The notes under the pieces were generated by a model that saw nothing but the letters and a program-made list of their open reading frames with translations, ran no database searches and was not told the DNA's origin. From Actinomyces johnsonii (GTDB taxonomy: Bacteria; Actinomycetota; Actinomycetes; Actinomycetales; Actinomycetaceae): DNA of 64,000 nucleotides. The position numbers and the translations under genes were made by a program. The stretch is taken from positions 186,001 to 250,000 of the forward strand of contig NZ_VICB01000013.1 in the NCBI RefSeq assembly GCF_006546835.1, read 5' to 3'. Below, in pieces: positions 13,283 through 18,292 of this stretch. Each line of letters opens with the position of its first letter. Position 1 is the stretch's first letter.

Positions 13283-14164
13283 TCAACGCCCCAGTAGGCC
13301 GAGGATCTGACGGCGCAGCTCGCGGAACTCATCGGCCGACTCGTCGTGCTGGGGCACCTTGATGTCGGCGACGATATGCGCGGGCCGCTCGGATAGGACG
13401 ATCACCCGACCGGCCAGACGCAGTGCCTCATCGACATCATGGGTGACCAGGACGGCCGTGAAGCGCTGGGAGTCCCAGAGCCTGGCGATCTCATCCTGGA
13501 GCTGGAGGCGGGTCAGGGCGTCGAGCTTGCCTAGGGGCTCGTCCAGGAGGAAGAGCCGGGGCCGGTTGACCAGTGCCCGCGCTAGCGAGGCCCGCTGGGC
13601 CATGCCCCCCGAGAGCGTGGCGGGGTAGGCCTCGGCGAAGTCCCGCAGTCCTACGATCTGCAGGGCCGCCTCCACCCGGCGCCGGTCCTGTTCCAGTCGG
13701 TGTCTCGCCTCGGGGCCCAGGGCGACATTGTCGCGCACCGTCCTCCAGGGCAGGAGTGTGGCGTCCTGGAAGGCCAGGGCGCGCAGCGGTGACGGCCCGG
13801 TCACGGGTTCGGAGTCGACTTCGACGACGCCCTCGACAGGTTCCTCCAGCCCGGCCAGCAGGCGCAGGATCGTCGACTTGCCGCAGCCGGAGGGACCCAC
13901 CAGTGAGACGAACTCTCCGGGCGCCACCGTCAGATCGATGTCATCGAGCACGGGGAGCTGATCGGGCTTCGCGGCCTCGGCCTCGTGGCGGGCTCTGGCG
14001 GCGGGGGACAGACGGCGAAGCAGGAAGTGGAGCCAGCCATGGTCCAGGTCGCGGGACAGAGGATAGCGGTGCGTGACGCCCTTGAGAGCCACCTGCGCGC
14101 CGCGGGGGACGGACGGGGCCGCTGCCTGTGGCGAGCCTTCAGCTGTTGCAAAACCGGCGGACAT
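13283..14164 (-). CDS. ABC importer ATPase, SsuB/TauB type
   Basis: 293 residues. Walker A GPSGCGKST, Q-loop FQDATLLPW, signature LSGGMAQR, Walker B LFLLDEP followed by LGKLDALTR, and the switch histidine in VTHDVDEAL are all intact. The LGKLDALTR and DVDEAL signatures are those of nitrate/sulfonate/taurine importer ATPases. An insertion of about 35 residues (HGWLHFLLRRLSPAARAR region) sits before the Walker A. It follows the permease gene by 4 bases and is the last gene of the three-gene operon. The cysteine-rich leader upstream favours a sulfur compound as substrate (inference). Confidence 0.88.
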   Translation of the reverse strand: MSAGFATAEGSPQAAAPSVPRGAQVALKGVTHRYPLSRDLDHGWLHFLLRRLSPAARARHEAEAAKPDQLPVLDDIDLTVAPGEFVSLVGPSGCGKSTILRLLAGLEEPVEGVVEVDSEPVTGPSPLRALAFQDATLLPWRTVRDNVALGPEARHRLEQDRRRVEAALQIVGLRDFAEAYPATLSGGMAQRASLARALVNRPRLFLLDEPLGKLDALTRLQLQDEIARLWDSQRFTAVLVTHDVDEALRLAGRVIVLSERPAHIVADIKVPQHDESADEFRELRRQILGLLGR

Positions 14165-14168
14165 CGGT

Positions 14169-15230
14169 TCACCACCTCACAAGGTTCTGCTGCCATGCCA
14201 GCAGCGAGGAGCGGATCTTGAACAGGAGGACCATGAGCGTGCGGCAGAAGGCCACCAGGATGATGAGGCCCACATACATCCTGGGATAGTCTGCCCAGCC
14301 CTTGACCCAGTTGATGTACCAGGCCAGCCCCTTGTCGACGCCGGTCAGCTCGGCAGTCATAAGCGCTGCGAGTGATGTGCCCAGGCCCGTGAACAGGCCG
14401 GTGAGCATGTCGGGCAGGGCCGATGGCACGGCCACCCGCCTGATGAGGAAGAACTCGTCGGCTCCCAGTGTGCGGGCCATGTCGATGTAGTCGCGGCGTA
14501 CGGAGCGCACGCCTGCACGGGTCATGGTCGCCATGGGGAACCAGGCGCCGAAGCCGACGATGAAGGCCGCTGAAGCGTATGTCGTCGGAAGCAGTAGCAG
14601 CGCCAGAGGCAGGAGCGAGGCCGCGGGTACGGGCCCGACGGTCTGGAGGAGCGGGTGGAGCCAATAGTCGGCGCGTTTCGACCAGCCCATGAGCAGTCCT
14701 GTGAGGAAGCCCAGCAAAGACCCCACCGTGTACCCGATGGCGAAGAGCAGCGCCGAGGCTCCCAGACAGCTGAGCAGCAGCCTCCAGTCGTGTGCGAAAG
14801 AGGCGATGAGCACCTCCGGTGCGGCGAAGTACGGAGGCGTAAGAATTCCGAGCTTCGAGGTTGACAGCTGCCAGACGATGAACCATGCGCCGGCGGCGGT
14901 GATCCAGGGCAGGAAATGCGTCAACGACTTCGCCGCAAAGGAGCCTGGCCTGATTCGTGAGGCCGCGGTCCACCCGATCAGAATTATGATCCATGCGCCG
15001 GTAAGGAGAATGACCGGAGTGGTCGATGCCCGGCGGAGCAGGTCGGCCTCCGGAAGACCGATGACGATGGCCAGGTAGGCCGGCCACAAGAACAGTGCTA
15101 TGGCGCTCAGAAGAGAACCCGGGGCGGGTCGATCGTGTTTCGATACGCCGCGCTCAGGCTGAGAGGAGCTCTGTTCCCGCTGTTTCTCGCCGGAGATTTC
15201 GGTTGGTGCGCCGAGGGACGTTGCGGACAT
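14169..15230 (-). CDS. ABC importer permease, SsuC/TauC type, with N-terminal extension
   Basis: 353 residues, about 90 longer than typical SsuC-like permeases. The extra part is a polar N-terminus plus two additional membrane segments (SAIALFLWPAYLAIVIGL and ILLTGAWIIILIGWTA). The core BPD-transp domain has about six segments and an EAA loop of the form GADEFFLIRRVAVPSALPDM, the coupling site for the ATPase. The ATG at 15230 is chosen over a TTG at 15236. It starts six bases after the binding-protein stop, so the three genes form one transcript. Confidence 0.88.
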   Translation of the reverse strand: MSATSLGAPTEISGEKQREQSSSQPERGVSKHDRPAPGSLLSAIALFLWPAYLAIVIGLPEADLLRRASTTPVILLTGAWIIILIGWTAASRIRPGSFAAKSLTHFLPWITAAGAWFIVWQLSTSKLGILTPPYFAAPEVLIASFAHDWRLLLSCLGASALLFAIGYTVGSLLGFLTGLLMGWSKRADYWLHPLLQTVGPVPAASLLPLALLLLPTTYASAAFIVGFGAWFPMATMTRAGVRSVRRDYIDMARTLGADEFFLIRRVAVPSALPDMLTGLFTGLGTSLAALMTAELTGVDKGLAWYINWVKGWADYPRMYVGLIILVAFCRTLMVLLFKIRSSLLAWQQNLVRW

Positions 15231-15236
15231 TATCAA

Positions 15237-16388
15237 TCAGTCCTTGATACCGAGATCAGCGACGACGGCGTTGGTCAGACTCTGGGCGGAGACGTCGGCC
15301 TTGATGAAACCGGTCGTCTTGAACTTCTCAATACCGGGCTCGATCGCGGCACGGAACCTGGACGCCGAGGCCTTGAAACCGTATGTCTTGAGCACCCGCA
15401 CGACGACGTCCTGATCTGCGGCGACGTAGTTGTTGTCGACCTCGAGCTTGGCGATCTCCTCGATGTGATCGGGCACGTAGGCCGAGCCCTTCAACCACGC
15501 CTGCGTCAGCGCCTTGGCCCTTTCGGGCTGTTTCTTCACGAAGTCTCCGTTGAGGGCTACGGAGCAGCAGAACTCCTCGGCGTCGTTGTTGGCCAGCTCT
15601 CGGGCCGTGCCATTGAAGACGGGGAGCAGCGGCGCGGGATCGGATCCCATGATGGCGTCCACCTGCCCGTCTGCCAGGGAGGTCCCCAAGGAATCCGCAT
15701 CAACCGTGCGCCAGGTGATGTCGCCCCCGTCCGGGTCGACGTTGATACCGGCCTCGGACAGTCCGATCGCGAAGTAGGCGAAGGCAGACGAGGACAGCGA
15801 TGGTACGCCGATCGTGGAGCCCTTGAGATCAGCCAGGCTCTGATAGGGGGAGTCGTTGTTCACCACCAGACGCAGGCAGCCGGCATGAAGCCCCGCAGTG
15901 AGCTTGGCGTTGAGCCCGTTGTAGATTGGTTCCAGCCAGGAGAAGAAGATTCCCGGTGCGCCGATGTATTTGCCGGCGCCCACGCCGTCCTTGGTGTCCT
16001 CGGTCTGCTGGGTGCGTGCGAGTGTGATCTTCAGCCCGGCATCATCGAAGAAGCCCTGGTGGTAGGCGGCGTACAGCGGTGCGGCGCAGATGTCGCCGCC
16101 GATGACCAGCGGCAGCGCCTCATGGGCGCCGACCACGCCTTGGTTGGTGCGCCGAATCGTCAGGTACGCGCCGGTGCCGACCACTGCAGCAGCCGCAAGA
16201 CTTCCAACCGTCAGCAGCGTCCGCCGCGACGGCTTGCTGCGACCAGATGAGTCTGCCGCGGAGATGCTGGGATCGTCGTCGGCGGCGAGGATCTCCGCCG
16301 CGTTGTCAGCAGTAACCTCGTTGTCCCCAGGAGACTCAGCACCCGACGGGGATGAGGCGGAGGAGGGAGAGGGAACGGTCTTCGACAT
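15237..16388 (-). CDS. ABC importer substrate-binding protein, NMT1/SsuA-like, membrane-anchored
   Basis: 383 residues. The first 54 residues are a Ser/Asp/Glu-rich cytosolic extension. A twin-arginine-like SRRTLLTVG and hydrophobic segment (residues 54-77) follow; there is no lipobox cysteine, so it is either Tat-exported or anchored by this helix. The rest is a periplasmic-binding-protein fold of the NMT1/THI5-SsuA kind (LPLVIGGDICAAPLYAAYHQGFF, then DLKGSTIGVPS and DGQVDAIMG). Ligand prediction is uncertain between sulfonates, taurine, nitrate-like anions and pyrimidines; the leader peptide suggests sulfur. AGGAG lies about 6 bases before the ATG and can pair with a CTCC just upstream. Confidence 0.85.
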   Translation of the reverse strand: MSKTVPSPSSASSPSGAESPGDNEVTADNAAEILAADDDPSISAADSSGRSKPSRRTLLTVGSLAAAAVVGTGAYLTIRRTNQGVVGAHEALPLVIGGDICAAPLYAAYHQGFFDDAGLKITLARTQQTEDTKDGVGAGKYIGAPGIFFSWLEPIYNGLNAKLTAGLHAGCLRLVVNNDSPYQSLADLKGSTIGVPSLSSSAFAYFAIGLSEAGINVDPDGGDITWRTVDADSLGTSLADGQVDAIMGSDPAPLLPVFNGTARELANNDAEEFCCSVALNGDFVKKQPERAKALTQAWLKGSAYVPDHIEEIAKLEVDNNYVAADQDVVVRVLKTYGFKASASRFRAAIEPGIEKFKTTGFIKADVSAQSLTNAVVADLGIKD

Positions 16389-16702
16389 GGTGTCTCCTAC
16401 GGAGGGGATATAGAACCGAATAGGTGTGAAAGCAGCGTCGTTGAGAGACGAGATTCGGCCGCCGTCGCGGCGATTACCTGCGGGAAAGACAAATAAGACG
16501 AAAAAGGGTGATGAATCCTCGCGCGGTCTTCAGATCATCCGGTCACGGAACTCTGAGGGACGGTCGCGCATAACCCGTCAAGGGCCCGCAAGAATGAGAG
16601 ACCGGAAGCGAGGCCCGACTGCACATCGCGCCGCCAGCTCCGAAGTGGTCGCCCCTTACCGAGAAGTCACCGCGTTTCCCGGGCGGCACATTAGATGAAC
16701 AA
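16389..16702 (-). promoter_or_regulatory. 314-base leader region between poly-Cys ORF and binding-protein gene
   Basis: No credible gene. On the minus strand it ends with the binding-protein ribosome binding site GGAG (16394-16397), which is mirrored by CTCC (16401-16404) across a 3-base loop, a possible though weak sequestration stem. A pyrimidine-rich CCCTTTTTCG lies near 16500-16510. I saw no TPP or SAM riboswitch core. Its position after a cysteine-codon ORF suggests it carries the attenuation structure. Confidence 0.4.
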
Positions 16703-16801
16703 TCAACAAGGCCGACAACAACAGCACATTCGCGTACCACACATGGCCGCGAGCGCCTGTGCGCCGGGGGCGGTGGTGGTCGTCAGAGCGATGTGCGTCA
16801 T
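16703..16801 (-). CDS. Leaderless poly-cysteine leader peptide, candidate cysteine attenuator
   Basis: A 32-codon ORF on the minus strand whose last 13 residues read MCGTRMCCCCRPC, with six cysteines including four in a row, then TGA at 16703. The ATG at 16801 is preceded by TAGGGT (16809-16814) with a 7-base gap, so the mRNA would be leaderless. The internal ATG at 16744 is an alternative start. Poly-cysteine leaderless short ORFs are known in mycobacteria as cysteine-responsive attenuators of sulfur operons: slow decoding of Cys codons opens the downstream ribosome binding site. The three-gene importer downstream fits a sulfur-source transporter. The identification rests on the cysteine run, promoter spacing and gene context. 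Confidence 0.68.
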   Translation of the reverse strand: MTHIALTTTTAPGAQALAAMCGTRMCCCCRPC

Positions 16802-16808
16802 GAGCACC

Positions 16809-16814
16809 ACCCTA
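16809..16814 (-). promoter_or_regulatory. -10 box of the poly-Cys leader transcript
   Basis: TAGGGT on the minus strand, seven bases before the ATG at 16801. A TTGCAT about 19 bases further upstream is a possible -35. The spacing predicts transcription starting at the ATG itself. Confidence 0.5.
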
Positions 16815-16908
16815 CGCCATATCAGCCGGAAGAATGCAAGTTCGTTTCTTCTCCTCGGCGGTCCGTCTCGATCGGTCTGTGCCTCGTGGGGGTGGGACGG
16901 GGGTCCGA

Positions 16909-16914
16909 TATGGT
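16909..16914 (+). promoter_or_regulatory. -10 box of the esterase gene
   Basis: TATGGT seven bases before the GTG at 16922. This is the same leaderless spacing seen elsewhere in the window, and it favours the GTG over an in-frame ATG at 16910 that overlaps the box. Confidence 0.45.
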
Positions 16915-16921
16915 CTCTGGT

Positions 16922-18292
16922 GTGAGCGGAACCCGACCTGACGATGTTCTGGTGCAGCGGACCCGGTGGCGGGAGCTGGCCCCCACCCCTCTGGGCCCGG
17001 ATGGGAGTCTGATTCGCTCGACTCCGGCATGGTGGCCGTCCCATCCCGACGATGACGCCCTGGCGGCCGCTGCGGCTCGCGGCACCCCCGTCCTGGGGGA
17101 GTCCCGTATCGTTGCGGGTGTCGAGATGCGCGAGGTGACCTTCCTGTGGTGCGACGACCAGCGGCATGGTCCCGCGCCCAGCGTTCTCATCCATCTCAAC
17201 ACGCTGACCGACAATCATCGCACTCACATCGCCCCGGCGCTCGCCGTCCGAGTTGCCGGGACCAGCTGGTGGGTGCACCACCTCCTCCTGCCTCAGGACG
17301 CTCTCCTGGGATACCGGATCGTTGTGACCCGCGAGCCGTTGCCCGACGACGCCGGGACCCGGCGGGAGCGCTGGAAGCATGTTCACGAGCAAGGGCGCCC
17401 AGATCCCTTCAATCCCGATCGCCTGCACGATGGTTTCGGCTTCGTCTCCTCCCTGTGGGAGGGACCGGGCGCCGCCACCCACCCGGAATGGTCGGCTGCG
17501 GCGCGCCCCGGGGACGACTCGGCGTTCAATGGCGGCGGGTACGCCGGCAGTACAGAGCTCGGTGGTGCTGCTGCGCTCGAGGGCTTCGACGCCCCCGGTG
17601 ATTCTTCGCGACGCATCACCCTGTGGCTGCAGGAGCCCGTCGGCGGCGGACAGCGCGGGGAAAAGGCCGAGAAGAAGCGCGGATTGCTGGTTCTGCTCGA
17701 CGGAGAGATCTGGCGCCGCAACGACGTCGTCCGCCGTCTTGGTGCCAGGGCGGCGTCCTGGGACCTACTGCTCATCGACTCCGGAGACCTGTCCATGCGC
17801 ACCCGTGACTTGGCGGATCCGCGCCGCAGCAGAGAGCTGCTGAGCAGGTGCCTGCAGGCGGCTCGAGTCGGCCGGCGGCCGTGGAGCCCGCGGCGGGTGG
17901 TGGTGGCCGGTCAATCCCTGGGGGGCGTGGCCGCAGCGGATCTCGTCACGCACCGGCCCGATATCGCCGGTCGCGCCATTGTCCAGTCGGCGTCCTTCTG
18001 GTTGGGGTCAGGCCGCCGGGGCGAGGGGGAGGGGGAGCTGCTTTCCTGGTTGCGAGGTAGGGCTGAGCTGAAGTCTGCTGAGCTGCTGGAGGCGCGACTG
18101 GTGGTTCAATGCGGCGTCCACGAGGGGGTCCTGCGTCAGGGGGCGCGCACGGCCGCGGGTCTTCTCGCGGCCGAGGGGGTTCTGCTCGAGTATCACGAGG
18201 AGCGCGGCGGTCACGACTACGCCTGGTGGCGGCACGGGCTGTCCTGGGGGCTCGACGCTCATGAGCAGGACCTCTCCTCAGGACATGGATAG
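16922..18292 (+). CDS. Enterochelin esterase-like alpha/beta hydrolase
   Basis: 456 residues from the GTG at 16922. The N-terminal half is an immunoglobulin-like domain as in Fes/IroD (VTFLWCDD region, then NTLTDNHR). The C-terminal half is an alpha/beta hydrolase with the nucleophile elbow GQSLGG and a closing GGHDYAWWRHGL for the catalytic histidine. Fes-type enzymes cut ferric enterobactin-like siderophore esters in the cytosol to release iron; no signal peptide is seen, which agrees. No siderophore importer is adjacent, so the substrate is uncertain. It is transcribed away from the sulfur-type importer and the two promoters overlap within about 110 bases. Confidence 0.8.
   Translation: MSGTRPDDVLVQRTRWRELAPTPLGPDGSLIRSTPAWWPSHPDDDALAAAAARGTPVLGESRIVAGVEMREVTFLWCDDQRHGPAPSVLIHLNTLTDNHRTHIAPALAVRVAGTSWWVHHLLLPQDALLGYRIVVTREPLPDDAGTRRERWKHVHEQGRPDPFNPDRLHDGFGFVSSLWEGPGAATHPEWSAAARPGDDSAFNGGGYAGSTELGGAAALEGFDAPGDSSRRITLWLQEPVGGGQRGEKAEKKRGLLVLLDGEIWRRNDVVRRLGARAASWDLLLIDSGDLSMRTRDLADPRRSRELLSRCLQAARVGRRPWSPRRVVVAGQSLGGVAAADLVTHRPDIAGRAIVQSASFWLGSGRRGEGEGELLSWLRGRAELKSAELLEARLVVQCGVHEGVLRQGARTAAGLLAAEGVLLEYHEERGGHDYAWWRHGLSWGLDAHEQDLSSGHG

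Follow-up and report, generated by a model that had tools for sequence, protein, structure and literature searches.

A putatively leaderless cysteine-rich sORF as the probable sensor of a cysteine attenuator ahead of an SsuA/NMT1-like importer in Actinomyces

Comparison across the genus indicates that a 32-codon sORF of Actinomyces johnsonii, placed ahead of a three-gene ABC importer in the 64,000-nt stretch of DNA analysed here (the window), is very probably the sensor of a ribosome-mediated cysteine attenuator of sulfur uptake. The initial annotation had described this minus-strand ORF 7 nt after TAGGGT with the importer downstream, which we could confirm with a spacer of 314 nt between sORF and SBP (start at 16388). 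It had also proposed that the cysteine device of mycobacteria operates here, and the genus lends this support, as a leader of this kind precedes the importer in 27 of 27 cases and a second one is found at 28 of 28 sulfite-reductase loci. The elements of the window are the following:

16814-16809, minus strand: TAGGGT, a -10-like (TANNNT) box, 7 nt ahead of the sORF ATG
16801..16703, minus strand: putatively leaderless sORF, MTHIALTTTTAPGAQALAAMCGTRMCCCCRPC, 32 codons followed by TGA
16706..16741, minus strand: Cys-coding tail of the sORF, with Cys at codons 21, 26-29 and 32 (5 TGT, 1 TGC)
16703..16716, minus strand: candidate local helix, 5' arm GTCGGCCTTGTTGA, reaching from the last base of Cys codon 29 to the end of the stop
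16648..16662, minus strand: candidate local helix, 3' arm TCGGTAA-G-GGGCGAC, 41-55 nt after the stop
16403..16462, minus strand: C-over-G stretch (C 0.37, G 0.17) ahead of the SBP ribosome-binding site, a candidate for a rut-like or unstructured zone
16394..16398, minus strand: SBP Shine-Dalgarno sequence AGGAG
15237-16388, minus strand: SBP, NMT1/SsuA-like (Pfam NMT1, 1.2e-14)
14169-15236, minus strand: permease (BPD_transp_1, 4.4e-20)
13283-14164, minus strand: ATPase (ABC_tran, 4.8e-32)

From the spacing of 7 nt after TANNNT, we infer a transcription start on the sORF AUG or right beside it, so that the sORF would be leaderless. On the plus strand lies a divergent enterochelin-esterase-like gene (16793-18292), whose longest ORF overlaps the sORF promoter and whose start is uncertain. 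The arrangement is a rare one in the A. johnsonii genome, where the sORF profile matched the window sORF at E 5e-15. There are six sites with four successive TGY codons, and only the window sORF is a short ATG ORF behind TANNNT. Furthermore, among 66 TANNNT-N7-ATGRC sites, a scan blind to leaders of other start codon or spacing, only the window sORF and the leader of the sulfate operon described below combine an ORF of at most 60 codons with adjacent Cys codons. Rfam 15 gave no match to the leader between 16200 and 17000 at E <= 1.

Regarding the importer, all three proteins resemble those of sulfonate/nitrate-type importers, and all three missed the curated cut-offs of the SsuABC models of NCBIfam: the SBP reached 67.3 bits against TIGR01728 (SsuA_fam, cut-off 163.5), the permease 74.4 of 347 bits and the ATPase 215.2 of 395. 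The NCBIfam matches listed for the permease were below their cut-offs, as were all of the 25 listed for the ATPase, and no solved structure related in sequence to the SBP was found at E <= 0.01. Four cysteines of the SBP (C101, C171, C274 and C275) are invariant among 10 aligned orthologues, and wherever the SBP frame is unbroken (20 genes) it contains exactly four Cys codons. An SRR stretch of the SBP appears Tat-like in our own reading. By SBP, the closest named relatives are A. naeslundii, A. oris, oral taxon 170 and Actinomyces sp. ZJ308, with 87-90% identity.

We searched for the SBP in 37 genomes of the genus, that of A. johnsonii included, and in 22 others of the order, and found 21 orthologues, all of them within the genus; the weaker matches (E 1e-9 or worse, 25-38% identity) were taken as other SBPs. 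Ahead of each of the 21 orthologues found in this way is an ATG ORF, 31, 32 or 39 codons long, whose tail is rich in Cys. In the opposite direction, a profile built from 16 sORFs was run over 49 genomes of the genus and gave 26 matches at E <= 2.5e-8, seven of them in genomes new to the set. In six of these seven genomes an SBP lies downstream of the sORF, some of these SBPs being only partly inside the fetched locus. Thus, the set of 27 importer leaders consists of 21 found through the SBP and 6 found through the sORF; the 39-codon sORFs of G004 and G036 are known via the SBP search. In the 12 genomes added for the profile the SBP was sought only beside sORFs, and the presence of the importer was judged through the sORF.

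The 27 leaders are alike in their architecture. The sORF has 32 codons in 20 cases, 31 in five and 39 in two, and always stops at TGA; TANNNT lies 7 nt from the ATG in 26 leaders and 6 nt in the remaining one, and SD-like sequences are found ahead of the SBP starts in the relatives (the SBP start of L021 was placed by its AGGAG). The last 12 codons hold between two and six Cys codons. The uninterrupted Cys run is clade-specific, whereas Cys richness is conserved: CC is found in 24 of the 27 leaders and CCC or longer in 9. When the initial annotation proposed to look for the cysteine run in close relatives, what proved to be conserved in all 27 was the Cys-rich tail together with TANNNT and its spacing, and the strict run was not. 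Upstream of TANNNT, a TTGC aligns in the 13 sequences of groups 1 and 2 of the leaders but not in groups 3 and 4. The gene neighbourhoods of six relatives' loci, read by eye, vary, and therefore the sORF stays with the importer.

Two genomes depart from this pattern. In G060 (L073, 1501-1593 and downstream) the sORF is kept, TANNNT is gone, no SBP was found in the locus and the frames of permease and ATPase look broken; as read from its sequence, this importer operon is decayed. In G012 (L021) the sORF is intact but the SBP frame breaks off after 124 codons; this break may be a sequencing error, because the assembly is only 82% complete.

The link to sulfur comes from a second leader in the same genome. 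We scanned 97.5 kb around sulfur-related genes of A. johnsonii, plus the 64-kb window, for leaderless Cys sORFs, and there were only two matches, the window sORF and the following one:

L088 10965..10879 (G000:C4), minus strand: second leaderless Cys sORF, MTFSHAALFSGVYPADILRAHAVMCCRA (...AVMCCRA), directly upstream of the sulfate-assimilation operon

The genome encodes PAPS_reduct proteins, and the operon behind MTFSHAALFSGVYPADILRAHAVMCCRA can be read as sulfite reductase-CysH-CysD-CysN-SUMT and more, the gene names being read from the translations except for the PF01507 and PF01077 matches. As this second Cys sORF precedes a sulfite reductase/CysH/CysD/CysN operon, the device is tied to sulfur. 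No other Cys leader was found in this genome around three luciferase-like loci, three of the four PALP (cysK-like) loci (those other than L087) and a third PAPS-reductase-like locus. Another short ORF, MTSPEHWWWNLNR (L239, G000:C28:1456-1473, minus strand), lies 7 nt after a TANNNT and is perhaps a tryptophan-operon leader.

Sulfite reductase is present in 28 of the 49 genomes of the genus, and at each of these 28 loci there is an sORF that ends in MCC[QR]A or within one residue of it, with TANNNT 7 nt from an ATG (26 loci) or 6 nt from a GTG (2 loci). The pattern ATGTGYTGTCRGGC gave 31 matches in 30 of the 49 genomes, against none for the reversed control; 28 of the matches are the sulfite-reductase leaders, and the others are in G014 (C9), in G009 (not leaderless) and in the importer sORF of G063. 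Among 396 genomes of the order, the same pattern, which detects the MCC[QR]A tail type only, matched in 22, at 25 places in all (reversed control, 7). The seven matches within the genus were all sulfite-reductase leaders, and none of the 18 outside it had an in-frame start behind TANNNT.

We propose that the device would work as follows. Transcription would begin at or next to the sORF AUG and the ribosome would enter at the 5' end. When Cys-tRNA is scarce, the ribosome would stall on the Cys codons near the stop; the tail of the sORF would also be the 5' arm of a helix with a downstream element, and the stalled ribosome would mask this arm, so that the helix would not form and the importer would be expressed. 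With ample cysteine, the ribosome would clear the tail, the helix would form and expression would fall. We take this direction of regulation from the mycobacterial precedent. The sulfate-assimilation operon would be under the same kind of control through its own leaderless sORF, and the last step would be either masking of the ribosome-binding site (RBS) or Rho-dependent termination in the C-rich leader.

Both sORF families favour TGT, which is rare in the SBP gene: the Cys codons of the 27 importer sORFs are 88 TGT and 36 TGC and those of the second sORFs are 53 TGT and 7 TGC, whereas the SBP genes of 21 loci have only 2 TGT among their 81 Cys codons (79 TGC).

A pairing partner for the tail was found in 16 of the 27 leaders. 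The helix (helix A) can join the tail CTG[T/C]CAGGCNC to an element with a core that begins 56-123 nt ahead of the SBP start; the element is missing from the other 11 leaders, including those of the window and its clade. Helix A comes out on top among the helices scored in L011-L021, ranking first or nearly so in each leader (second in L015), and of the leaders of these groups that were found afterwards 5 of 5 have its 3' element as well. It was after helix A had turned up in L011-L021 that groups 2 and 3 received their names. At the wobble position of the last Cys codon the pair is U-A in 8 leaders, U-G in 7 and C-G in 1; at that of the next Ala codon it is G-C in 7, A-U in 4 and U-A in 2, with no pair in 3 of the 16.

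Covariation was scored on 13 of the 16 sequences, the set omitting L021, L048 and L056, whose helix arms are those of L014. On this set 95.5% of the cells pair, against at most 39.1% in slid versions of the helix, and the covariation score was equalled by none of 500 shuffles, which ignore relatedness. Double-sided changes are seen at one pair only and were matched by 332 of the 500 shuffles. When arms were swapped between leaders, the cognate pair was better (11/5000), with means taken over 14 of the 16 sequences and the permutation over 9 clade representatives; a nested helix B (211/5000) and a crossing helix C (465/5000) were weaker. The predicted pair probabilities of helix A are near 1.0 in at least nine leaders (L013-L021). 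A duplex test against shuffled 3' regions, which is confounded by GC content, gave 17/300 or better in 13 of the 16 leaders of groups 2 and 3 and was not passed by L020 (104), L071 (122) and L060 (175, its arm reaching partly past the 120 nt covered). Of the 11 leaders in groups 1 and 4, 10 gave no signal in this test; the exception was the window (5/300), owing to a duplex distinct from the local helix.

This local helix, listed above for the window, is the candidate partner in the window's clade. It has 14 pairs, of which 96.4% of the cells pair over four species, and alifold on these species gives p 0.91 and 0.99 for the two halves of the 5' arm. Its covariation is not above that of the shuffles, as 180 of 500 reach it, and the copy in the window has one G.G mismatch. 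Clade 1B has another candidate helix with Cys codons in the 5' arm. In each of the 28 sulfate leaders the stop is followed, after 0 or 3 nt, by GCGCCTGA, which can pair locally with the tail; since it hardly varies, its covariation cannot be judged. Altogether, a pairing partner for the tail has good support in 16 species of other clades and is suggestive in the window's clade, and by geometry the 5' arm of each of these helix arrangements would lie under a ribosome stalled on the tail.

As a tentative proposal, which we hold to be possible rather than probable, in two leaderless sORFs that are unrelated to each other, the Cys codons could also serve as one arm of a shared RNA module (TGYTGTCRGGC with GCGCCTGA). 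The module would be local in the sulfate operon, whereas in the 16 importer leaders it would span the greater part of the spacer and may include a pseudoknot. Pairing would then dictate both the TGT preference and the Cys-Gln-Ala tail, and the remote arm would exert its effect at the level of transcription and not by masking the RBS directly.

For the last step, Rho-dependent termination has in our opinion slightly less than an even chance of being correct. With cysteine present, the helix would leave a C-rich, G-poor stretch free for Rho, and a stalled ribosome would prevent this. The C-over-G stretch of the window is at the 97th percentile of the window's 60-mers, and in 24 of the 27 leaders such a stretch before the SBP is at or above the 95th percentile; nevertheless, the control for this base skew was the window's 60-mers and not other 5' UTRs, and the rut site is only a candidate. 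The spacers between sORF and SBP, of 187-327 nt in the 27 leaders, also suit termination by Rho. An intrinsic terminator was rejected, as terminator-like sites between 15500 and 17800 are not above expectation (2 found, one of them weak and on the leader strand, for 1.1 expected), which also argues for Rho. In the available text of Seliverstov et al. (2005, PMC1262725), Rho is proposed for the Cys leaders of other genera, although the authors call this prediction weak.

Translational control through masking of the RBS, as in M. smegmatis, is possible as well, with the balance somewhat against it. A 12-bp helix joins the sORF to the SBP start region in L012 and L015, and the predicted energy for opening the RBS falls when the tail is masked from 13.5 to 7.6 kcal in L012, from 11.1 to 6.4 in L015 and from 12.0 to 7.0 in L018. 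However, these are the only 3 of the 27 leaders with a drop of 3 kcal or more; in the other 24 the change is smaller and in some of them upward, and in the window the opening energy is 8.5 kcal free against 8.5-8.8 masked. Therefore, the published RBS-masking step is not generally predicted here, and as a general mechanism we rejected it on the energy model for 24 of the 27 leaders, the window included.

Both variants of the last step belong to the attenuator. It is quite improbable, on the other hand, that the sORF encodes a functional small Cys-rich peptide (e.g. binding thiols or metals) made together with the importer, the codons and the RNA being incidental. Such a peptide would agree with the near-fixed length (31-32 codons in 25 of the 27 leaders) and with the conservation of the sequence itself, including an excess of synonymous changes among nine group 1 leaders (168 synonymous to 198 nonsynonymous pairwise codon differences against 24:76 expected of single random changes, the pairs not being independent). 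However, the number of Cys residues in the last 12 codons and their positions drift, the TGT bias suits needs of RNA or decoding, and the other sulfur operon is preceded by an sORF with a different N-terminus and the MCC[QR]A tail. Moreover, in groups 2 and 3 the most conserved stretch, Cys-Gln-Ala, falls on the RNA arm, with wobble bases that covary with a distant element. Finally, short ORFs are many in GC-rich DNA, but a chance ORF in a promoter region with TANNNT is ruled out for practical purposes by the conservation in 27 of 27 importer leaders, and the 28 of 28 sulfate leaders and the 0 of 18 pattern matches outside the genus speak against it too.

If the attenuator is accepted, the importer most likely brings in a sulfur source, and this is argued from the leader kind common to the importer and the sulfate operon. 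The initial annotation had let the leader assign a sulfur substrate to an importer that it called sulfonate-type; sulfur as such is supported, indirectly, by the link to the sulfate operon, and the sulfonate part fares worse. Sulfur of sulfonates is normally released as sulfite. Among the 49 genomes of the genus, 21 have both the sORF-SBP pair and a sulfite reductase, 6 the pair only, 7 the reductase only and 15 neither. PF01077 (NIR_SIR) matches in G000 and G014, whereas it has no match in four genomes that are 99-100% complete (G015, G022, G063 and G070), all of them with importer and sORF, nor in G019 (89% complete) and G012 (82%, with the broken SBP frame), both with the sORF. Sulfonate as substrate is doubtful because of these six genomes, above all the four nearly complete ones. 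It is an attractive guess that methionine or another reduced sulfur compound is imported instead, since the metNIQ leader of Streptomyces lividans appears to be of a related kind.

The kind of device is already known. Leaderless polycysteine sORFs of mycobacteria are reportedly cysteine-responsive attenuators, as is said to have been described by Canestrari et al. in 2020. The leaders of Actinomyces share with them the Cys codons near the stop, a position ahead of sulfur genes, plain for the sulfate leaders and probable for those of the importer, the presence of more than one such operon per genome and, as inferred here, the leaderless start. They differ in the genus and in the SsuA/NMT1-type importer, in the spacer of 187-327 nt and in that the Cys run is strict in only a third of the leaders, and in 16 species the helix partner lies well before the start codon and not at the RBS. 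This mycobacterial work is cited in PMC9094748 and PMC9031893, as far as the available text of both goes.

Cys leader peptides were also predicted before the cys operons of Mycobacterium spp. and Propionibacterium acnes and before cbs of Bifidobacterium longum (PMC1262725). According to the available parts of that survey, they resemble ours in the Cys codon runs near the stop, in the lack of an obvious terminator and in the suggestion of Rho; no conserved hairpin is reported for them, whereas 16 Actinomyces species have a covarying partner. No Cys leader of Actinomyces is reported in those parts, although A. naeslundii was among the genomes used. The metL leader of metNIQ in S. lividans TK24, as given in the available text of PMC8079986, is leaderless, has an ABC importer downstream and ends its 29 residues in CMCRRMCAF, which can be compared with MCRECMCRCCQAL of L011. 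The authors read it as methionine-dependent there; by its CMCRRMC tail it may be a cysteine leader. Among the open-licence papers listed, none appears to describe a cysteine leader of Actinomyces. The new points are the genus and the operon, the leader that accompanies it at the sulfate genes, and the covarying partner of the Cys codons in 16 species.

The 2005 survey, in its available parts (PMC1262725), has no such partner for Cys leaders. For the importer, to which no curated family gives a name, the analysis offers a sulfur assignment, along with a hint that the substrate may do without sulfite reductase; a sulfonate label given by homology may thus mislead. With these leaders, the cysteine attenuators of mycobacteria would extend to Actinomyces, where two such operons would be found in one genome.
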